Source of the DNA: Deferribacterales bacterium Deferri_01
GTDB taxonomy: Bacteria; Chrysiogenota; Deferribacteres; Deferribacterales; Geovibrionaceae
Assembly (NCBI GenBank): GCA_001603805.1
Contig: LUZY01000013.1
Coordinates: 660,723-724,722 of the forward strand
DNA length: 64,000 bases
Reading direction: 5' to 3'
Each line of letters starts with the position of its first letter. Positions within the stretch are counted from its first letter, which is position 1. The position numbers were made by a program, and so were the translations under genes. A model generated the notes under the pieces. The model saw only the letters and a list, made by a program, of their open reading frames with translations, was not told where the DNA came from and did not search any database. Of the stretch, positions 29,989 through 37,581 are shown one piece after another.

Positions 29989-30061
29989 TTGATCACATTC
30001 TCAAAAGGGGTATATGATTAGACAGAAACTAACTTTGTTAACAGTACTCTTAATAAAGTTA
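29989..30061 (+). promoter_or_regulatory. Probable promoter and inverted repeat before the ferrosome-like operon
   Basis: TTGATC (29989-29994) and TATGAT (30013-30018) are spaced 18 bases apart, a fair sigma-70-type promoter. Between it and the first gene lies TAACTTT (30030-30036) with its inverted copy AAAGTTA (30055-30061), next to the AGGTGG ribosome site. I could not find a convincing Fur box. The inverted repeat could be an operator or a leader hairpin. Confidence 0.45.
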
Positions 30062-30073
30062 TAGGTGGCTAAA

Positions 30074-32284
30074 TTGATAACAGTTAAGCACTCACTTAAA
30101 GGGCGAATCCGCCTGAAATATAAAGAGATGATCGGCTCGCCCTCTCTTGCGGAATCAGTGGAGAAGTCCCTCCTCAAGCTCGAAGGGGTAAGCGCTGCCA
30201 GATGCAGTCACATCGGCGGAAACATAGTCATAAACTATGACTGCACTGCCATTCTCCCCTCAGACCTCATCAAAGCAATCACAGAGGCTAAGCCCCTGCC
30301 CCGTGCTACCTTTAATACTCCGGCATGTAAGAGAGAGGGCTGCGTCTGCGTAAGAAATGAGCGCCCCAAAGCCAACACGACTGCAACCGAATTCGGCATA
30401 CTCTCCGCTGTTCTCGGCAGTGTGTTCATACGCACAAAAATATTCCGGCTGGCGGTCAGTCAGTTGCTCTTCAGCCCCTTGGGGCTAATTGCAGCAGCAT
30501 TTTCAGTACCATTAATTGCAAAAGCGGTCAGTGACTTCGGAAAAACAGGCAAAATATCCTTAAACAGCTTCCTCGGTGCGGGAGTAGCATCCGCCGCCAT
30601 AGCGGGCGAAGCCCTCACAGCTCTTGAGATACTTTGGGTAAACACAGGCAGCGACCTGCTGAACGGATACGTCACAGAGAAATCCCGCAAGGCAATTAAG
30701 AATATTCTGGACGTAACATCCAAAACAGCCTTTGTGTACAGAGACGGACAGGAGATCGAAGTCCCTGTGGAGCAGATACACGCAGGCGATACAGTGGTGA
30801 TACACACCGGCGAAAAGATCTCTGTGGATGGTCTCATAACCTGCGGTGAAGCAGCGATAAACGAAGCCTCAATAAACGGGCGCAGTGAACTTGTCCACAG
30901 ATTTGAGGGCGAACAGGTATTCGCCGGAACCTACGTGCAGAACGGGCTCATATATGTTAAGGCAAGTCACGTCGGTGATTCAACCTATCTGGCAAGAATA
31001 CTCTGCCTTGTCGAGGACTCCCTCGGCAATAAAGCACCCATTGAACTTGAGGCAGACAGACTGGCAAGGAAGCTTGTAAACACGGGCTTCTGGATGACCC
31101 TCGGCACGTTTGTAATAACCCGCAGCTTTTACAGAGCCTTTTCTGTCCTCCTTGTTATGGCATGCCCCTGCGCAACAGTTCTTGCCGCATCGTCCGCAGT
31201 AAGTGCCGCCATATCCAACGCCGCCTCAAAGGGCATCCTTATCAAAGGCGGAAGATACCTTGAGGAAGCAGGCTCACAGGAATCCTTCTGCTTTGACAAA
31301 ACAGGCACAATCACTACTGATGAGCCGAAGGTTATCTCCATTGTCCCCATCAAAGGAAAAACAGAATACGATGTAATATACTCAGCATACACCGCAGAAC
31401 TTCACAACAGGCACCCTGTTGCCGTTGCCATACGTGACAAAGCAAGAGAGATGTGCAGCGCTGAAACCACCCACGCAGTGTGCGAAACCATTCTTGGAAT
31501 GGGTGTCCGTGCCGAGTCTATGGGGCGTGAGATATTTATCGGCAACGCAAAGCTGATGAATAAATACGGAATAAACATATCCAAGCTCGAAAAGCCCTCA
31601 AAGGAAGCCGAACAGCAGGGATTAAGCGTCATATATGTGGCTGAAGACGGAAAAGTAATCGGCATTCTCACTGTGGAAAACAAACAGAAAGAGAATGTTG
31701 AAGCGGTCATAAACGGTCTGCGTGAAGAAGGGGTGAAGGAGTTCATTCTTGTCACAGGAGATGAAAAATACTCCGCACAGGCAATGGCGGACAGGCTCGG
31801 CTTTAATAAGTGCCACTACTCCGTTCTGCCGGAACAGAAGGCGGACATAGTTGCCGACATTCAGCAGTATCATAAAGTAACCATGATCGGTGACGGCATA
31901 AACGATGTACTTGCATTAGCAAAAGCTGACCTCGGCATAGCCATGGGCGCCGCAGGTTCTGATGTTGCGGTGGAGGCAGCGGATATAGCCCTTGTTGACG
32001 ATGACCTTGAAAAAATACTGTACTTAAGAAAACTCAGCAGAAAAACAAAGGAAGTTATACACCAGAACTTTATGCTCGCCACAGGCTCAAACATAGCCGG
32101 TGCGCTGCTCGGTGCTGCGGGACTGTTGCCCCCTGTTATGGCAGGGCTGCTGCACATAGCCCACACTGCGGGCGTTCTCGGCAATTCTTCCAGACTTTTG
32201 AAATATGAAATGCAGCCACTTTCCGTAATAGATTCGGAAGCGGCGGAACTCTCGGAGGATGGGGAAAAATGCTCGAAGATTTAA
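30074..32284 (+). CDS. P1B-type ATPase with N-terminal HMA2-like domain and altered actuator loop
   Basis: A 736-residue P-type ATPase. An N-terminal HMA2-like domain (about 1-70) has GRIRLK instead of CxxC; a Cys cluster CKREGCVCV lies near residue 90. Membrane helices follow, then CPCAT in the ion-channel helix (about 364-368), phosphorylation site DKTGT (D408), the HP motif NRHP of the nucleotide domain, TGD and GDGIND. The actuator loop, normally TGES, reads NGRS, losing the glutamate needed for dephosphorylation. I prefer TTG 30074 (AGGTGG five bases upstream) to GTG 30065. It opens the ferrosome-like operon. Transported ion unknown; iron is inferred from context. Confidence 0.9.
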   Translation: MITVKHSLKGRIRLKYKEMIGSPSLAESVEKSLLKLEGVSAARCSHIGGNIVINYDCTAILPSDLIKAITEAKPLPRATFNTPACKREGCVCVRNERPKANTTATEFGILSAVLGSVFIRTKIFRLAVSQLLFSPLGLIAAAFSVPLIAKAVSDFGKTGKISLNSFLGAGVASAAIAGEALTALEILWVNTGSDLLNGYVTEKSRKAIKNILDVTSKTAFVYRDGQEIEVPVEQIHAGDTVVIHTGEKISVDGLITCGEAAINEASINGRSELVHRFEGEQVFAGTYVQNGLIYVKASHVGDSTYLARILCLVEDSLGNKAPIELEADRLARKLVNTGFWMTLGTFVITRSFYRAFSVLLVMACPCATVLAASSAVSAAISNAASKGILIKGGRYLEEAGSQESFCFDKTGTITTDEPKVISIVPIKGKTEYDVIYSAYTAELHNRHPVAVAIRDKAREMCSAETTHAVCETILGMGVRAESMGREIFIGNAKLMNKYGINISKLEKPSKEAEQQGLSVIYVAEDGKVIGILTVENKQKENVEAVINGLREEGVKEFILVTGDEKYSAQAMADRLGFNKCHYSVLPEQKADIVADIQQYHKVTMIGDGINDVLALAKADLGIAMGAAGSDVAVEAADIALVDDDLEKILYLRKLSRKTKEVIHQNFMLATGSNIAGALLGAAGLLPPVMAGLLHIAHTAGVLGNSSRLLKYEMQPLSVIDSEAAELSEDGEKCSKI

Positions 32285-32574
32285 TTGCGGCAAAGAAATA
32301 TGTCACAGTGGCGCACCATGTGGAAGGCAGAATAAGGCTTAAGGTTGACCCTTCCGTGGTGAAGGATCCTGTGAGTAAGAAACTGGAGCATATAAGCAGC
32401 AGCCTCCCCGGAGTGCTTGACACACGGGTAAACATAATGGCTCGTTCAGTAGTTATACGCTATGACCCTAATATAATAGACCCCAAAACATTTGAAAAAC
32501 TGATAACAACTAAAGATACTGAAGTTTGCAGGGAGATTCTTAAAAGATACGAAGACACTTATCTGCAATCATAA
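32269..32574 (+). CDS. Stand-alone HMA2-like domain protein
   Basis: A 101-residue soluble protein with one heavy-metal-associated-2-like fold: YVTVAHHVEGRIRLKVDPSV, then ISSSLPGVLDTRVNIMARSVVIRYD. It has the GRIRLK motif shared with both ATPases of this operon and no CxxC, so classic thiol metal transfer is unlikely. It overlaps the first ATPase gene by 16 bases. Ferrosome clusters are known to include proteins with heavy-metal-associated domains, and this protein may have the corresponding role. That equivalence is inference. Confidence 0.85.
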   Translation: MLEDLIAAKKYVTVAHHVEGRIRLKVDPSVVKDPVSKKLEHISSSLPGVLDTRVNIMARSVVIRYDPNIIDPKTFEKLITTKDTEVCREILKRYEDTYLQS

Positions 32575-32585
32575 GGAGGCAGTAC

Positions 32586-33272
32586 ATGGGAAAAAAAGCC
32601 GCAGATGCGGAAAATCCCGTAAAAGAAGAAAGCTGCACCGATTCACCGCAGGAAGATTCTGCATCGGGAAAAGAAAAAAGAAAAGAAAACACTCCTCAGA
32701 ATGCCTTCAGAGCATCGGAGAAACCGGAAGGCGGCGAAATGCCCGCCGGAGATCAATTTGAACCACCCTACGGATACGCACCAAACGGAGAAGAGTTTAT
32801 GGGACAGCCCGACTTCGGGTTCCAGCAGCCCCCGTACGGCTACATGCCGCCCCCACCTCCGCCATACGGCTATATGCCTATGCCGCCTCAGCCTCCGTAC
32901 GGGTATATGCCACAGCAGATGCCTTATGGGTATATGCCTCCGCCATACGGATACATGCCGCAGCAGCCGCCTTACGGCTATATGCCCCAGATGCCCCATG
33001 AGCCGCACCACCAGCATCATGAGGAGCAGCATCACCCTGAAGACCCGTTCGGAATGATTTTCGGCAAATTCGGGGACATGATCAAGGAAAATCCGCATCT
33101 TTCAGCCATGGGCAAGTTTGCGGATGCGTCAGGGAGCGATTTTGTAAAAGGAATGCTTATAGGAGCAGGCGTTGCCATGCTTTTTTCAAACGATTCCATT
33201 AAAGACTCACTGATGAGTATTTTCTCTAAAACACTCGGCGGCATGGCAGACGATGCCGAAGACGCCGAATAA
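32586..33272 (+). CDS. PYGYMP-repeat protein with His-rich patch and C-terminal helix
   Basis: A 228-residue low-complexity protein. A charged N-terminus (1-58) is followed by one PYGYAP and six PYGYMP repeats (about 61-134), then a His-rich patch (HEPHHQHHEEQHHPED, about 138-153), then a conserved-looking tail with SDFVKGMLIGAGVAMLFSN (about 174-192), a glycine-containing hydrophobic helix, and an acidic end. The tail matches the 103-residue protein downstream (FVKG/YVKG, GAGxA, N, K). A metal-binding, membrane-anchored scaffold or matrix protein is a reasonable guess. AAGGAGG precedes the ATG. No known enzyme domain. Confidence 0.88.
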   Translation: MGKKAADAENPVKEESCTDSPQEDSASGKEKRKENTPQNAFRASEKPEGGEMPAGDQFEPPYGYAPNGEEFMGQPDFGFQQPPYGYMPPPPPPYGYMPMPPQPPYGYMPQQMPYGYMPPPYGYMPQQPPYGYMPQMPHEPHHQHHEEQHHPEDPFGMIFGKFGDMIKENPHLSAMGKFADASGSDFVKGMLIGAGVAMLFSNDSIKDSLMSIFSKTLGGMADDAEDAE

Positions 33273-33282
33273 GGAGGATATT

Positions 33283-33612
33283 ATGCACCATCTTACAAAA
33301 GCTGTAACCGGAGCATCAGTTGTCGGAGCGGCAGCAGGTGCGGTAGTGGGCGGAGCAGTATCCGCAGCTAAACAGGCAAAGGATGTTAAAGAAGGCAAGA
33401 TAACCAAAGAAGAAGCCGCTAAAAAAACAGCAAAAGACGCAGCGGGAGCAGGAGCAGCAACAGCAGTGGGCGTTGCAGCGGCAAGTCTTCTCCGCCTCGG
33501 CGGCGTATTCGGAATACTTACTGTTTTCGCTGTGGCGGCGGGCACAAAGTACCTGCTTGATTCATCAGTCGAAAAAGCATGTAAAGCAAAAGAACCTGTA
33601 AAATCAGAATAA
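33283..33612 (+). CDS. MamC/Mms13-like small membrane protein
   Basis: A 109-residue protein with two Gly/Ala-rich membrane segments (about 8-28 and 54-88) joined by a charged loop (29-50). The stretch from SAAKQAKDVKEGKITKEEAA onward aligns without gaps to my memory of magnetosome protein MamC: AK, KE, IT, E-AA, T, K, then GAG-ATA and a later KY. In MamC this loop touches the magnetite crystal through Glu66 and Asp70. Here the Glu is kept and the Asp position is Lys. I chose ATG 33283 because AAGGAGG lies five bases before it. Database confirmation is needed. Confidence 0.82.
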   Translation: MHHLTKAVTGASVVGAAAGAVVGGAVSAAKQAKDVKEGKITKEEAAKKTAKDAAGAGAATAVGVAAASLLRLGGVFGILTVFAVAAGTKYLLDSSVEKACKAKEPVKSE

Positions 33613-33635
33613 TATAAAGAAAAAAGGAGACGAAC

Positions 33636-33947
33636 ATGAGCGATCAGAAACAGAATCCCCAGAACCCTCAGGCACAGCAGTACGGATATTACCCCTACCC
33701 TTATCCCCAGCAGCAGTATGCTGACCATTCAGTCTACCCCCACCTTAAACAGTGGTTTAACTTCCGTGAGCCTAGCTATGTTAAGGGTTTTGCTGTGGGC
33801 GCAGGGCTTGCGATCCTTCTCACTAACCCTGCTGTCAAGAAAGCCATAGTAAAAGGCGTTGTCAAGGTTTGGGGCGGTCTTCAGTCCGGCGTTGAAGAAC
33901 TTAAAGAACAGATAAGAGATGTTCAGGCGGAAGTAGAAGGAGAATAA
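33636..33947 (+). CDS. Small membrane-anchored protein with Tyr/Pro/Gln-rich N-terminus
   Basis: A 103-residue protein. Residues 1-35 are rich in Gln, Pro and Tyr (QQYGYYPYPYPQQQY). A hydrophobic glycine-containing helix follows (YVKGFAVGAGLAILLTN, 48-64), then an amphipathic charged helix (EELKEQIRDVQAEVEGE). The central part is a paralogue of the C-terminal tail of the PYGYMP protein in the same operon. AAAGGAGA precedes the ATG. The helix pattern also recalls YtxH-type anchors. Probably a structural membrane protein of the proposed organelle; no enzymatic motif. Confidence 0.83.
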   Translation: MSDQKQNPQNPQAQQYGYYPYPYPQQQYADHSVYPHLKQWFNFREPSYVKGFAVGAGLAILLTNPAVKKAIVKGVVKVWGGLQSGVEELKEQIRDVQAEVEGE

Positions 33948-33948
33948 A

Positions 33949-34179
33949 GTGAGCGGCGAAAGCAAGGCGGCGGTAAAAAAGAAGAAAAAGAATCCGTCTT
34001 CCGTAATGCGTAAACGTAAGCTTGTTAAAAATGCCCTGATATTCACGATGGCAGCAACTGTTGTGACAGGGTTCGGCAAAGGCAAAGCCGCCAAACAGCT
34101 CCATGTAGCTTCAGGCGTTGCTCTTGTCGGCTTAAGCATTTACCACAACTACCTTTATCCCGAAAATATGAAAAGTTAG
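33949..34179 (+). CDS. Small basic two-helix membrane protein
   Basis: A 76-residue protein starting with GTG one base after the previous stop, with GGAG six bases upstream. The N-terminus is strongly basic (AAVKKKKKNPSSVMRKRKLVK). Two helices follow: NALIFTMAATVVTGFG and QLHVASGVALVGLSIYHNYL. The second helix holds two histidines 15 residues apart. That layout recalls fragments of DUF4405/b561-type heme proteins, but a full four-helix heme site is not present, so heme binding would require a dimer or a partner. Function unknown. Confidence 0.75.
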   Translation: MSGESKAAVKKKKKNPSSVMRKRKLVKNALIFTMAATVVTGFGKGKAAKQLHVASGVALVGLSIYHNYLYPENMKS

Positions 34180-34202
34180 AAGGTGCTGTCATTTTAGGCT
34201 CA

Positions 34203-36302
34203 ATGTTTTTCACCGGACTGGAAAAAGTCGGAATAGTGCATGACATGCCGGGGCGTATCCGCCTCAAGGCTCCCGTTCTGGGCAATCCTGCTCTGGATGC
34301 CACACTTGTGGAATCAGGTCTGGAACAGATTAAGGGCGTGAAATCCGTCCGTGTAAACCAGAAGGCACAAACGGCAGTAGTGAACTTTGACAAAAAAACA
34401 GATGTACGGGGCGATGTTCTGGATGTTCTTTCAGCGTTCAGCCATACGGTTTTCAACGCTGAGGAAGAGCTTCAGAACTCCCCCGATTTAATCAATGTTT
34501 ACTGGGCAGGAACAATGTGGATTCTTAAATTGTTTCTGCCGCAGGGGCTAAGGCTTCCGCTAACATATCTCGGCGCTGCACCCATTATGATGGAGGGCAT
34601 AGAAACACTGTTCACCAGAGGGCTTAAGGTCGAGGTGCTGGATGCGGCAGTTATAGCAATGCTCCTTGCCAGAAAAGATTATTTCACGGCGGGTTCAATC
34701 ACATTTCTGCTTAACCTCGGACATTACCTTGAGGAATCTGCGGAATACAGATCTGACAAGATGCTGAAAAGCCTCATTAAACCGGAAGTTGAATACATTT
34801 GGGTAGTGAGAGGGCAGTCGGAAGAAAAAACAGCAGTGGGCGATCTCCAGATCGGGGATATGGTGCGTGCCGGTTCAGGGGAGATGATTCCTGTGGACGG
34901 AAAAGTCGCATCAGGAGAAGGACTTGTAAATCAGGCATCCGTAACCGGTGAAAGCCTGCCCGTTCACATCAAACCCGGAGACTATGTATATTCCGGCACA
35001 GTGATGGCTGAAGGCAAAATTATCATCGAAGCAGAGAAAGTGGGTTCTGAAACCACAACAGCAAGGATAGCAAAATTTATAAGCAACTCCCTTAAAAACC
35101 AGTCCAGAACAGAAGTCAAAGCATTTGCTGCGGCAGATAAAATGGTTCCCGTGACATTCGCCGCCGGACTTGCAACACTTCTGCTCACGAGGGATTTCAG
35201 GCGAGCATCGTCTGTCCTTTCCGTGGATTACTCATGCGCATTGCAGCTTGTAACTCCCACCGCTATCAAAGCAAGCATGTTCAATGCAGCCACTGAAGGA
35301 ATATTCATCAAAGGCGCACAGGCACTTGAGAACCTCTCTGAAGTGGATACAATAATTTTTGACAAAACAGGAACGCTCACAAAAGGGACACTCTCCGTAA
35401 CGGAGGTTCAGCCCTATAACGGATATACGGAAAATGAAATAGTGCGAATCGCCGCATCCGCAGAGGAGTATTACTCCCACCCAATAGCCTCAGCTGTTGT
35501 GAAGGAAGCGGCAAACAGAAACCTTGACCTTGAGCATACAGGCGAGGTGGACTTCATAATAGCTCACGGTGTTTCTGCATATGTGGGCGGAAAAAACGTT
35601 CTGGTGGGAAGCCATCACTTCGTTGCTGAAGACGAAAAAGTCGTATGTTGTTTTTCCGATGAAGATGCACGGAAAATGCGCACCAAGGGGCAGACAATAC
35701 TTTATGTCGCCATAGAAGGCATGCTCTGCGGTCTGATTGCCCTTAAAGATACCTTGCGCGATGAATCTGCACGGGTTATAAAAGAGTTAAAGAAGAACGG
35801 CATCAAAAAAACAGTGATGATCACAGGCGATCACCGTGACTCCGCACTCCATGTTGCGGAACTCCTTGGAATAGACGACGTTTATTACGAAATGAAGCCC
35901 GAAGATAAGGCGGGAATAGTTAAAAAACTTAAACAGCAGGGATGCATAATAGCATTCGCCGGAGACGGCGTGAATGATGCACCCGCACTCCTCACGGCTG
36001 ACGTGGGGATAAGCCTTCCGCAGGGTGCGGATCTGGCTAAGGAAACCGCAGCAGTTATACTCCTGCGGGAAGACCTCATGGGAATAGTGAAAGCACGTGT
36101 GCTTGCCGTTAAAACCATGAAGGTTATCAAACAGATGTTCCGGTTTAACATAGGCGTGAACACAGCTACAGTCGCTCTCTCACTCATGGGCAGAATAAGC
36201 CCGCTGACAAGCGCCCTGCTCCATAACGGAACCACGCTTTCGACACTGATTTACGCCCTGAGTCTTTCCTCTTACGGCGTAAAACATAAAAAGGAGAAGT
36301 AG
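34203..36302 (+). CDS. P1B-type ATPase, FezB-like candidate, channel motif YSC in place of CPC
   Basis: A 699-residue P-type ATPase with an N-terminal HMA2-like domain (IVHDMPGRIRLKAPVLG, about 1-70) and an intact actuator loop TGES (248-251). The channel helix reads SVDYSCALQLVTPTA, where other P1B pumps have CPC (Cys345 remains). The site is DKTGT with Asp387; HP is at 426-427 and GDGVND at 587-592. The last helices contain FRFNIGVNTATVALSLMG. FezB of ferrosomes is a P1B-6 ATPase, and this protein is the best candidate in the cluster. Its likely job is loading iron into a membrane compartment. Subclass and ion are inference. Confidence 0.9.
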   Translation: MFFTGLEKVGIVHDMPGRIRLKAPVLGNPALDATLVESGLEQIKGVKSVRVNQKAQTAVVNFDKKTDVRGDVLDVLSAFSHTVFNAEEELQNSPDLINVYWAGTMWILKLFLPQGLRLPLTYLGAAPIMMEGIETLFTRGLKVEVLDAAVIAMLLARKDYFTAGSITFLLNLGHYLEESAEYRSDKMLKSLIKPEVEYIWVVRGQSEEKTAVGDLQIGDMVRAGSGEMIPVDGKVASGEGLVNQASVTGESLPVHIKPGDYVYSGTVMAEGKIIIEAEKVGSETTTARIAKFISNSLKNQSRTEVKAFAAADKMVPVTFAAGLATLLLTRDFRRASSVLSVDYSCALQLVTPTAIKASMFNAATEGIFIKGAQALENLSEVDTIIFDKTGTLTKGTLSVTEVQPYNGYTENEIVRIAASAEEYYSHPIASAVVKEAANRNLDLEHTGEVDFIIAHGVSAYVGGKNVLVGSHHFVAEDEKVVCCFSDEDARKMRTKGQTILYVAIEGMLCGLIALKDTLRDESARVIKELKKNGIKKTVMITGDHRDSALHVAELLGIDDVYYEMKPEDKAGIVKKLKQQGCIIAFAGDGVNDAPALLTADVGISLPQGADLAKETAAVILLREDLMGIVKARVLAVKTMKVIKQMFRFNIGVNTATVALSLMGRISPLTSALLHNGTTLSTLIYALSLSSYGVKHKKEK

Positions 36303-37016
36303 ATGCTTAACCTTAAAAACGCCGAAAGCGGTTACTGCTACAGGATCAAGAACACTCCGCAGGGGGAATCGGCGCAAAAGCTCGCCGCACTTGGTCTCTA
36401 CAAAGGCAGTGCCGTAACCAAGCTTGATCTGGATGATGTTAAATACTCCACCGTTAAGGTTGATACTAAAAACGGCGTAAGAGTGATAAGCGGTCAGCTC
36501 GCCAAGCATATCACTGTCCGTGCGGGGAGTGGTTCTCCAAAACCTTTTTATGATGCTGCTCCTTCAGCCACAGTAATCACCTACAGCCTCGGCAAATGTG
36601 AAAAAAACGCTAAACGCCTCGCCATGCTGGGAATAAAACCCAGAATGAAGCTTAAAATAATCAAAAGCCTGCCCCCTATGGAGTATGTGGTTAATGTTAA
36701 CCATAAAAACAGAGTACGAATCTCCGAAGCTGTCGCCGCTATGATAATAGGCGACACTGTGAACAGGAAAAACTTTCAGTTCACCTTCTCACCAAAAGGA
36801 GTTGAGTTTAAAGTCTCTGGAATTGCAGCGGGGAAAAAAATTGCCACTTTCCTTAACAATGCTGACATAAACATCGGCTCTGTCTTGTCAATGGAAGGAA
36901 TAGAAAGCGGAAAACGTGTTGATCTTGACGCCGAGCAGGAAATAGTCCTCCATACTTTTGAAGGCGTTGTAATTACAATGTCGGAGAAAACCGCCTCACT
37001 GATCGAGGTGGAATAA
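36303..37016 (+). CDS. FeoA-like protein with three SH3-type repeats
   Basis: A 237-residue soluble protein whose ATG follows the ATPase stop directly. Three FeoA-like beta-barrel repeats can be traced: about 1-72 (GESAQKLAALGLYKGSAV), 82-150 (CEKNAKRLAMLGIKPRMKL) and 155-235 (AGKKIATFLNNADINIGSVL). The first two carry the L-x-x-L/M-G-(I/L) signature of FeoA; the third is divergent. FeoA domains assist iron transporters or act as C-terminal domains of iron regulators. As the last gene of the operon it supports an iron function. A DNA-binding domain is absent. Confidence 0.82.
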   Translation: MLNLKNAESGYCYRIKNTPQGESAQKLAALGLYKGSAVTKLDLDDVKYSTVKVDTKNGVRVISGQLAKHITVRAGSGSPKPFYDAAPSATVITYSLGKCEKNAKRLAMLGIKPRMKLKIIKSLPPMEYVVNVNHKNRVRISEAVAAMIIGDTVNRKNFQFTFSPKGVEFKVSGIAAGKKIATFLNNADINIGSVLSMEGIESGKRVDLDAEQEIVLHTFEGVVITMSEKTASLIEVE

Positions 37017-37021
37017 GAAAA

Positions 37022-37045
37022 CCCTTCGCCTTAAAGGGCGAAGGG
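37022..37045. terminator. Bidirectional terminator after the ferrosome-like operon
   Basis: CCCTTCGCC and GGCGAAGGG form a 9-bp stem with a 6-base loop. On the minus strand TTTTCTTATT follows, fitting termination of the yoeB transcript; on the plus strand a weaker AT-rich tail follows. It closes both converging operons. Confidence 0.75.
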
Positions 37046-37058
37046 AGATGATTTTAAT

Positions 37059-37310
37059 TTAATAGTGATATTTGCACTGTAATATAACAATATGACTATT
37101 ATCAATCTGATACACAAGTCTGTGTTCATGATCTATACGCCTTGACCATTTACCGGCAAGACTGAAATTAAGAGCTTCCGGTTTACCTATTCCCTCAAAT
37201 GGACTTCTGTGTATATCTTTTATCAGCTCATTAATCCTTCTCAGGATCTTTCTGTCGTTCTTCTGCCAGTAGAGATATTCATCCCATGCTGTCTCAGTCC
37301 AGACTATCAT
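37059..37310 (-). CDS. yoeB: Txe/YoeB family mRNA-interferase toxin
   Basis: An 83-residue RelE-superfamily toxin. It shows the YoeB pattern: WTETAWDEYLYWQKNDRK at the start, KPEALNFSLAGKWSRRIDHEHRLVYQI with the catalytic Glu/Arg region, and the C-terminal CKYHY with the catalytic histidine-tyrosine pair. YoeB cleaves mRNA at the ribosome. The start lies 17 bases inside the antitoxin gene, as is usual for yefM-yoeB. All key residues appear intact. Confidence 0.95.
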   Translation of the reverse strand: MIVWTETAWDEYLYWQKNDRKILRRINELIKDIHRSPFEGIGKPEALNFSLAGKWSRRIDHEHRLVYQIDNSHIVILQCKYHY

Positions 37311-37560
37311 CTTCTATCAGCTCTTTAACAAAGCTTTTGCCTTTTTCATATTCATCAATGCTTTTAGCCAGCTTTGCCGCATTTTCAGGGCTTTTCAGCA
37401 GATAAACTGTCTCCTGAAGAGAGTTGTAGCTTTCCAGAGACATCATAACAACAGGCTTGGCATTTTTTCTTGTAATGATAACAGGTTCATGGGTATCGCA
37501 CACATATTCCATTGTGCTTGCCATATTTTGACGAACCTGAGAATAGCTTTTAGCATCCAT
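37294..37560 (-). CDS. yefM: YefM/Phd family antitoxin
   Basis: An 88-residue antitoxin of the PhdYeFM fold: SYSQVRQNMASTMEYVCDTH, then EPVIITRKNAKPVVMMSLESY, typical of YefM, and an acidic C-terminus (YEKGKSFVKELIEDDSLD) that would wrap the toxin. GGAGG precedes ATG 37560 by six bases; the frame extends seven codons more without support. It neutralises YoeB and represses its own promoter, and an inverted repeat lies directly upstream. Confidence 0.95.
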   Translation of the reverse strand: MDAKSYSQVRQNMASTMEYVCDTHEPVIITRKNAKPVVMMSLESYNSLQETVYLLKSPENAAKLAKSIDEYEKGKSFVKELIEDDSLD

Positions 37561-37581
37561 ATCATGCCTCCTGCTATACAA

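Follow-up and report, generated by a model that had tools for sequence, protein, structure and literature searches.

The window analysed here, a 64,000-nucleotide stretch of Deferribacterales bacterium Deferri_01, comes from a Deferribacteraceae genome, probably of the genus Geovibrio, of 2.85 Mb in 14 contigs and carries a putative extended fez (ferrosome) operon. Inspection of its open reading frames (ORFs) found eight, F1 to F8, all open and all on the + strand, between 30065 and 37016, with intergenic gaps of at most 23 bases. The first-pass annotation had described eight tightly packed co-directional genes for two P1B ATPases, an HMA2 protein, a PYGYMP/His-rich protein, a MamC-like protein, two small membrane proteins and a FeoA-repeat protein, and both this layout and these identities hold. 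All nine Deferribacteraceae genomes that bear F7 have the eight genes in this order, so it is not a chance arrangement.

The operon opens with a predicted P1B ATPase of a fez-associated CPC clade (F1, 30065–32284), whose start is either GTG at 30065 or TTG at 30074, the latter being equally or more likely because AGGTGG directly precedes it. There follow an HMA2 protein with a GRIRLK motif (F2, 32269–32574), which matches the N-terminal half of the RS-1 FezC introduced below, and a low-complexity P/Q/Y/G-rich protein (F3, 32586–33272) with six PYGYMP units and one PYGYAP unit, a His-rich stretch and a C-terminal membrane anchor paralogous to F5. The MamC-family protein (F4, 33283–33612) lies in a frame open from 33253, and probably starts at 33283 because its orthologues begin with MHHL there. 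The remaining genes encode a small membrane protein with a Y/P/Q-rich N-terminus (F5, 33636–33947), a FezC-type DUF4405-like cytochrome domain (F6, 33949–34179), a P1B-6-type ATPase assigned as FezB (F7, 34203–36302) and a predicted cytosolic protein with three FeoA-like domains (F8, 36303–37016).

F7 combines an N-terminal GRIRLK with DYSCA in M4, where copper and zinc pumps have CPC, and with LLHNGTT, which holds an HN pair, in M6. An N-terminal RxR, [YF]SCA in M4 and HN in M6 are common to the FezB sequences that we inspected, bar a few variants with SCV or FACA in M4. In two trees, all pumps of the SCA type form one clade (support 100) that includes F7, the FezB of Desulfurispirillum and the FezB of a genome taken to be that of Desulfovibrio magneticus RS-1, and in both trees this clade is separate from the host genome's own copper- and zinc-type pumps. 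By motifs and tree position, F7 is a true FezB. General TIGR/NCBIfam models, on the other hand, name both F1 and F7 as heavy-metal or cadmium family ATPases, labels that would fit a conventional resistance operon for heavy metals (Cu/Zn/Cd) with a pair of exporters. Motifs and trees overrule these labels: F1 and F7 each fall in a clade of their own (support 99–100), apart from the CopA/ZntA types of the P1B-1/P1B-2 exporters, including those of the host genome, and M4 of F7 reads SCA rather than CPC. The first-pass annotation had itself named a grouping of both pumps with copper or zinc exporters among the outcomes that would tell against its proposal; neither pump groups there. With FezC, MamC and FeoA partners and no metalloregulator gene among the eight, a resistance operon is highly improbable.

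F6 shares 43% identity with Desulfurispirillum FezC (E 1.2e-13) and 37% with the C-terminal half of RS-1 FezC, and it keeps both invariant His residues; on these matches F6 is a FezC. Purified FezC of Desulfurispirillum indicum, a known ferrosome protein, binds haem b (PMC11334425). The fezABC genes of RS-1, described as a ferrosome gene cluster (Grant et al., 2022, as cited in PMC11334425), encode in order a small membrane protein, FezB and a single protein that joins HMA2 and DUF4405-like parts. Their predicted counterparts in the window are F5, F7 and F2 plus F6, FezC being split here into an HMA2 part (F2) and a cytochrome part (F6), while F5 occupies the position of FezA and is its probable counterpart. 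The relatives of F3 retain its P/Q/Y/G-rich character, but not always the PYGYMP-type unit. The F3 homologue of Desulfonema magnum (L068, 5213–6751) has a tandem repeat of its own, with a unit of about GQMPPGPQGPMPGVHTGPVYPP, and therefore the repeat region appears to evolve fast while the anchor is kept. Membership of the cluster among fez operons is thus well supported, because F7 is assigned as FezB, F6 as FezC, and F2, F3 and F5 resemble other fez parts; the fez-type operon proposed in the first-pass annotation stands, with F7 inside the same clade as RS-1 FezB.

The second pump, F1, shares its N-terminal motif with F7 (GRIRLK, within an HMA2 domain), together with CPCATVLAAS in M4 and LLHIAHT in M6. 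CPC pumps linked to fez genes, as examined in Deferribacteraceae, Desulfobacterota and Campylobacterota, fall together in a single clade (support 99 to 100), which excludes FezB, the host genome's own pumps and the CtpC-type pumps of Rhodococcus. This clade was drawn from a sample biased to fez neighbourhoods, and one long, odd CPC sequence (L072_19075) fell outside it in the first tree and was omitted from the second. Among 247 sampled Desulfovibrionaceae, F1 occurs in 46, including all 43 that have FezB of the window's type, and such a FezB is encoded no more than 10 kb from 42 of the 48 F1 hits, the other six being on contigs where none was found. Taken together, motifs and trees place F1 as a second P1B ATPase of a separate fez-linked clade, neither FezB nor a Cu/Zn exporter, which raises the question of what a ferrosome pumps besides iron.

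The two pumps and their small membrane partners could also be read as a flat metal-efflux platform in the cytoplasmic membrane, similar to the mycobacterial effluxosome, which would export surplus Fe(II) or Zn(II) and form no internal organelle. The P1B6-like pump CtpC works with small PacL membrane scaffolds (PMC9374683), and related DUF6110 proteins, which RS-1 FezA matches weakly, accompany P1B6 ATPases (PMC9374683; PMC13043812). Moreover, the nearest full-length relatives of F1 outside fez clusters include a Rhodococcus CtpC-type pump that adjoins a DUF1490 protein. However, F7 groups with the FezB of a proven ferrosome maker, F1 stands apart from the Rhodococcus CtpC-type pumps and has HIxHT in place of the HN of CtpC M6, and a family profile search of F3–F6 gave no DUF1490 match. 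FezC and MamC homologues would make little sense in such a platform, and we consider it unlikely.

No other result is as surprising as the link between F4 and MamC, the protein with which magnetic bacteria shape their magnetosome crystals, and none calls more for comparison with the earlier ferrosome literature. F4 matches the NCBIfam model for MamC, NF038051, with an E-value of 3.9e-13 and 49.5 bits, which is below the equivalog cut-off of 100 bits (true MamC proteins score 124–147 bits). Alignment of magnetosomal MamC (Magnetospirillaceae) with the Deferribacteraceae F4 proteins by hhalign gave 98.95% and a score of 93.8, with 39% identity over 82 columns; the Desulfobacterota fez proteins scored 90.9 and those of Campylobacterota a still significant 44.7, while controls (F5, FezC and reversed sequences) scored about 33 or less. 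The proteobacterial fez proteins gave no significant direct match to magnetosomal MamC (10.8%), and join it only through the Desulfobacterota and Campylobacterota groups. In a tree of 94 columns, magnetosomal MamC and the Desulfobacterota and Deferribacteraceae proteins form one group (100/99), within which magnetosomal MamC adjoins Desulfovibrio fez copies, with weak support (88/78) in this single, unrooted tree. The homology rests on NCBIfam, hhalign and the tree, because a search of the PDB with F4 returned no match. An AlphaFold model of F4 from its single sequence had three helices at low confidence (predicted local distance difference test, pLDDT, 67) and was set aside. By these comparisons F4 is a clear full-length homologue of magnetosome MamC, within one MamC superfamily, and the MamC-like call of the first-pass annotation proves stronger than the letters alone could have revealed.

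MamC and the pumps are tightly co-inherited. Among the 51 genomes of the phylum, MamC occurs in exactly nine, those with F7 at 64% identity or more, and always inside the operon. Among the Desulfovibrionaceae, it is found in 42 of the 43 genomes with window-type FezB vs. two of the 204 others (Fisher p 7e-44, uncorrected for relatedness), and window-type FezB is no more than 10 kb away from 51 of 55 MamC hits. One reading of this pattern is that membrane proteins of ferrosome clusters make up an older and far broader family, of which magnetosome MamC is one branch, recruited from an extended fez operon like this one as a homologous mineral-side protein of ferrosomes and magnetosomes; the same operons would define an undescribed P1B ATPase subgroup beside FezB (M4 CPCATxLxAS, M6 HIxH[TS]). 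We regard the arguments for and against this proposal as evenly balanced. The homology would tie two bacterial iron organelles, so far described as separate, to one protein family, and would make the origin of MamC testable. Literature mentioning both ferrosomes and MamC contained no apparent report of it, in a search that did not extend to Grant et al. (2022) and Pi et al. (2023).

A further possibility is that the product of the operon is a crystalline iron mineral of the magnetosome kind, with magnetite shaped by MamC. The loop of F4 does keep a Glu equivalent to Glu66 of MamC. The equivalent of Asp70, however, is Lys (positions assigned by our alignment), and in the phylum MamC-family hits occur only in these operons, in a search for MamC and not for other mam genes. 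We also know of no magnetic Geovibrio, and such a mineral seems barely credible here. The roles of the two loop residues are taken from PMC6584501.

F8 is predicted to resemble three FeoA domains, the first two by sequence and the third by similar predicted secondary structure, that is, by fold periodicity alone. Its predicted model is confident (pLDDT 90.6), and a fold search with it gave weak FeoA matches, the best FeoA-annotated hit having an E-value of 0.033 and most lying above 0.1. Directly 3' of F8, an intrinsic-terminator-like hairpin (37022–37045, + strand) would close the operon. At its other end, a weak sigma-70-like promoter candidate (29989–30018, + strand; TTGATC-18-TATGAT) was called on its consensus match alone (9/12), and the stretch is conserved in two further genomes of the same genus. 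Just downstream of the operon, on the – strand, lies a YoeB toxin and Phd-YefM antitoxin pair (37059–37581; PF06769, E 7.7e-39; PF02604, E 4.7e-24).

The extended variant is present in nine of the 51 phylum genomes and is patchy within the Deferribacteraceae, with sister clusters in Denitrovibrio acetiphilus (L044) and in Seleniivibrio woodruffii and related metagenome-assembled genomes. Its order recurs in Desulfovibrionaceae and other Desulfobacterota, and the window FezB is nearer to Desulfobacterota FezB than to the FezB of other families in its own phylum. This affinity and the patchy distribution therefore suggest horizontal transfer of the cluster. Another family of the phylum (L050–L054) carries a minimal RS-1-like cluster of small protein, FezB and HMA2, adjoined by a divergently transcribed P-type ATPase of copper-type appearance, with a CPC motif and an N-terminal CxxC. 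In some Desulfovibrio fez clusters (L206, 10645–14399; L076, L081), there is a third, FezB-like ATPase with DFACAVKF in M4 and, convergent to it, a mini-operon of a second MamC-like protein, an F5-like protein and two HMA2 proteins. The first-pass annotation's view that no case had been described in this lineage stands at the family level: we found no literature joining ferrosomes with Deferribacter or Geovibrio (Grant et al., 2022 and Pi et al., 2023 being outside the search) and no report of a ferrosome in Deferribacteraceae. It is too broad for the phylum, since the purified FezC of Desulfurispirillum indicum comes from the same GTDB phylum (PMC11334425).

Given this gene content, the operon is probably an extended fez cluster that stores iron in membrane vesicles. 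In such a system FezB (F7) would move ferrous iron out of the cytosol into a vesicle formed from the inner membrane, while FezC (F6) and the HMA2 protein F2 would pass electrons across the vesicle membrane and so set the redox state of the iron. F5 and F3 may be membrane-anchored scaffolds that gather the pumps by means of their low-complexity N-terminal regions, F3 possibly also retaining metal through its His/Tyr-rich stretch. The MamC-like F4 would turn an acidic loop to the lumen and bind or nucleate the iron mineral. F8 could act in solution as an adaptor or gate, either delivering Fe(II) to the pumps or controlling them, and F1 could be a further pump of the vesicle membrane, with iron or an accompanying divalent metal as its substrate. 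The sequences themselves show homology, motifs, a conserved gene order and tight co-inheritance; from these we infer the formation of an organelle, the direction of pumping and the identity of the metal, as well as these roles of F1, F3, F4, F5 and F8.

Several observations weigh against iron-storing vesicles. To our knowledge, no organelle has been reported in any Deferribacteraceae. The roles given to F1, F3, F4 and F8 derive from homologous proteins that were studied in other contexts, and none of the four is present at the RS-1 fez locus, so ferrosomes as such can do without them. The match between RS-1 FezA and the F5 family profile is marginal (E 0.01). Lastly, there is no recognizable Fur box in the window, and no Fur-box-like site was found in two other genomes of its genus or in Denitrovibrio, although such sites do lie upstream of the operon in five genomes of the Seleniivibrio group (L039–L043), about 80–130 bases from the F1 orthologue, with one to three mismatches (shuffle p 0.014 or less; e.g. 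TGATAATAATTTTCA, one mismatch). If the operon works as proposed, ferrosomes would extend to the Deferribacteraceae, an anaerobe family with iron-respiring members, and the cultured strains that carry it (Denitrovibrio acetiphilus, Seleniivibrio) make the ferrosome reading testable.

Among known systems, the mycobacterial CtpC/PacL1 platform (PMC9374683; PMC13043812) resembles the operon in having a P1B6-like pump with an RxR-type N-terminal domain and small membrane scaffold proteins. CtpC is P1B6-like by the HN in its M6 yet has CPC in M4 (PMC9374683), and F1 shares only the latter; both F1 and F7 lie outside the CtpC-type branch, the window has no DUF1490 partner, and effluxosomes are not known to include FezC, MamC or FeoA parts. 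Magnetosome MamC (Mms13) is homologous to F4 over the whole hairpin and has the Glu66 equivalent in common with it, but F4 falls short of the equivalog cut-off, differs at Asp70 and is encoded in a fez operon.

The remaining systems are fez clusters. In RS-1 fezABC, FezB likewise has an N-terminal motif (GRxRLR), SCA in M4 and HN in M6, FezC joins HMA2 to a DUF4405-like cytochrome, and a small membrane protein lies upstream. In contrast to its three genes, the window splits FezC into F2 and F6 and adds F1, F3, F4 and F8, and F7 sits on another branch of FezB. In a survey of 80 loci, the order HMA, MamC-like, F5-like and FezB was common in Proteobacteria and Campylobacterota (for a six-gene operon, see RPA2333–2338 of Rhodopseudomonas palustris; PMC12016538), but in most of these loci the second ATPase, F3 and the triple FeoA are missing, and their MamC-like proteins are remote. 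The first-pass annotation, which had set the cluster apart by its doubled ATPase and repeat protein, overstated the case, as the layout occurs in many Desulfobacterota. Those extended clusters (Desulfovibrionaceae, Desulfonema, Desulfobulbaceae) differ in that their pumps are mostly 41–50% identical to the window pumps, that some Desulfovibrionaceae (L207–L209) have MamC in front, and that a third ATPase (M4 DFACA) is present in some, along with another copy of MamC. Nonetheless, they share with the window the CPC pump, HMA2, F3, MamC, F5, FezC, FezB and triple FeoA, in largely the same order.

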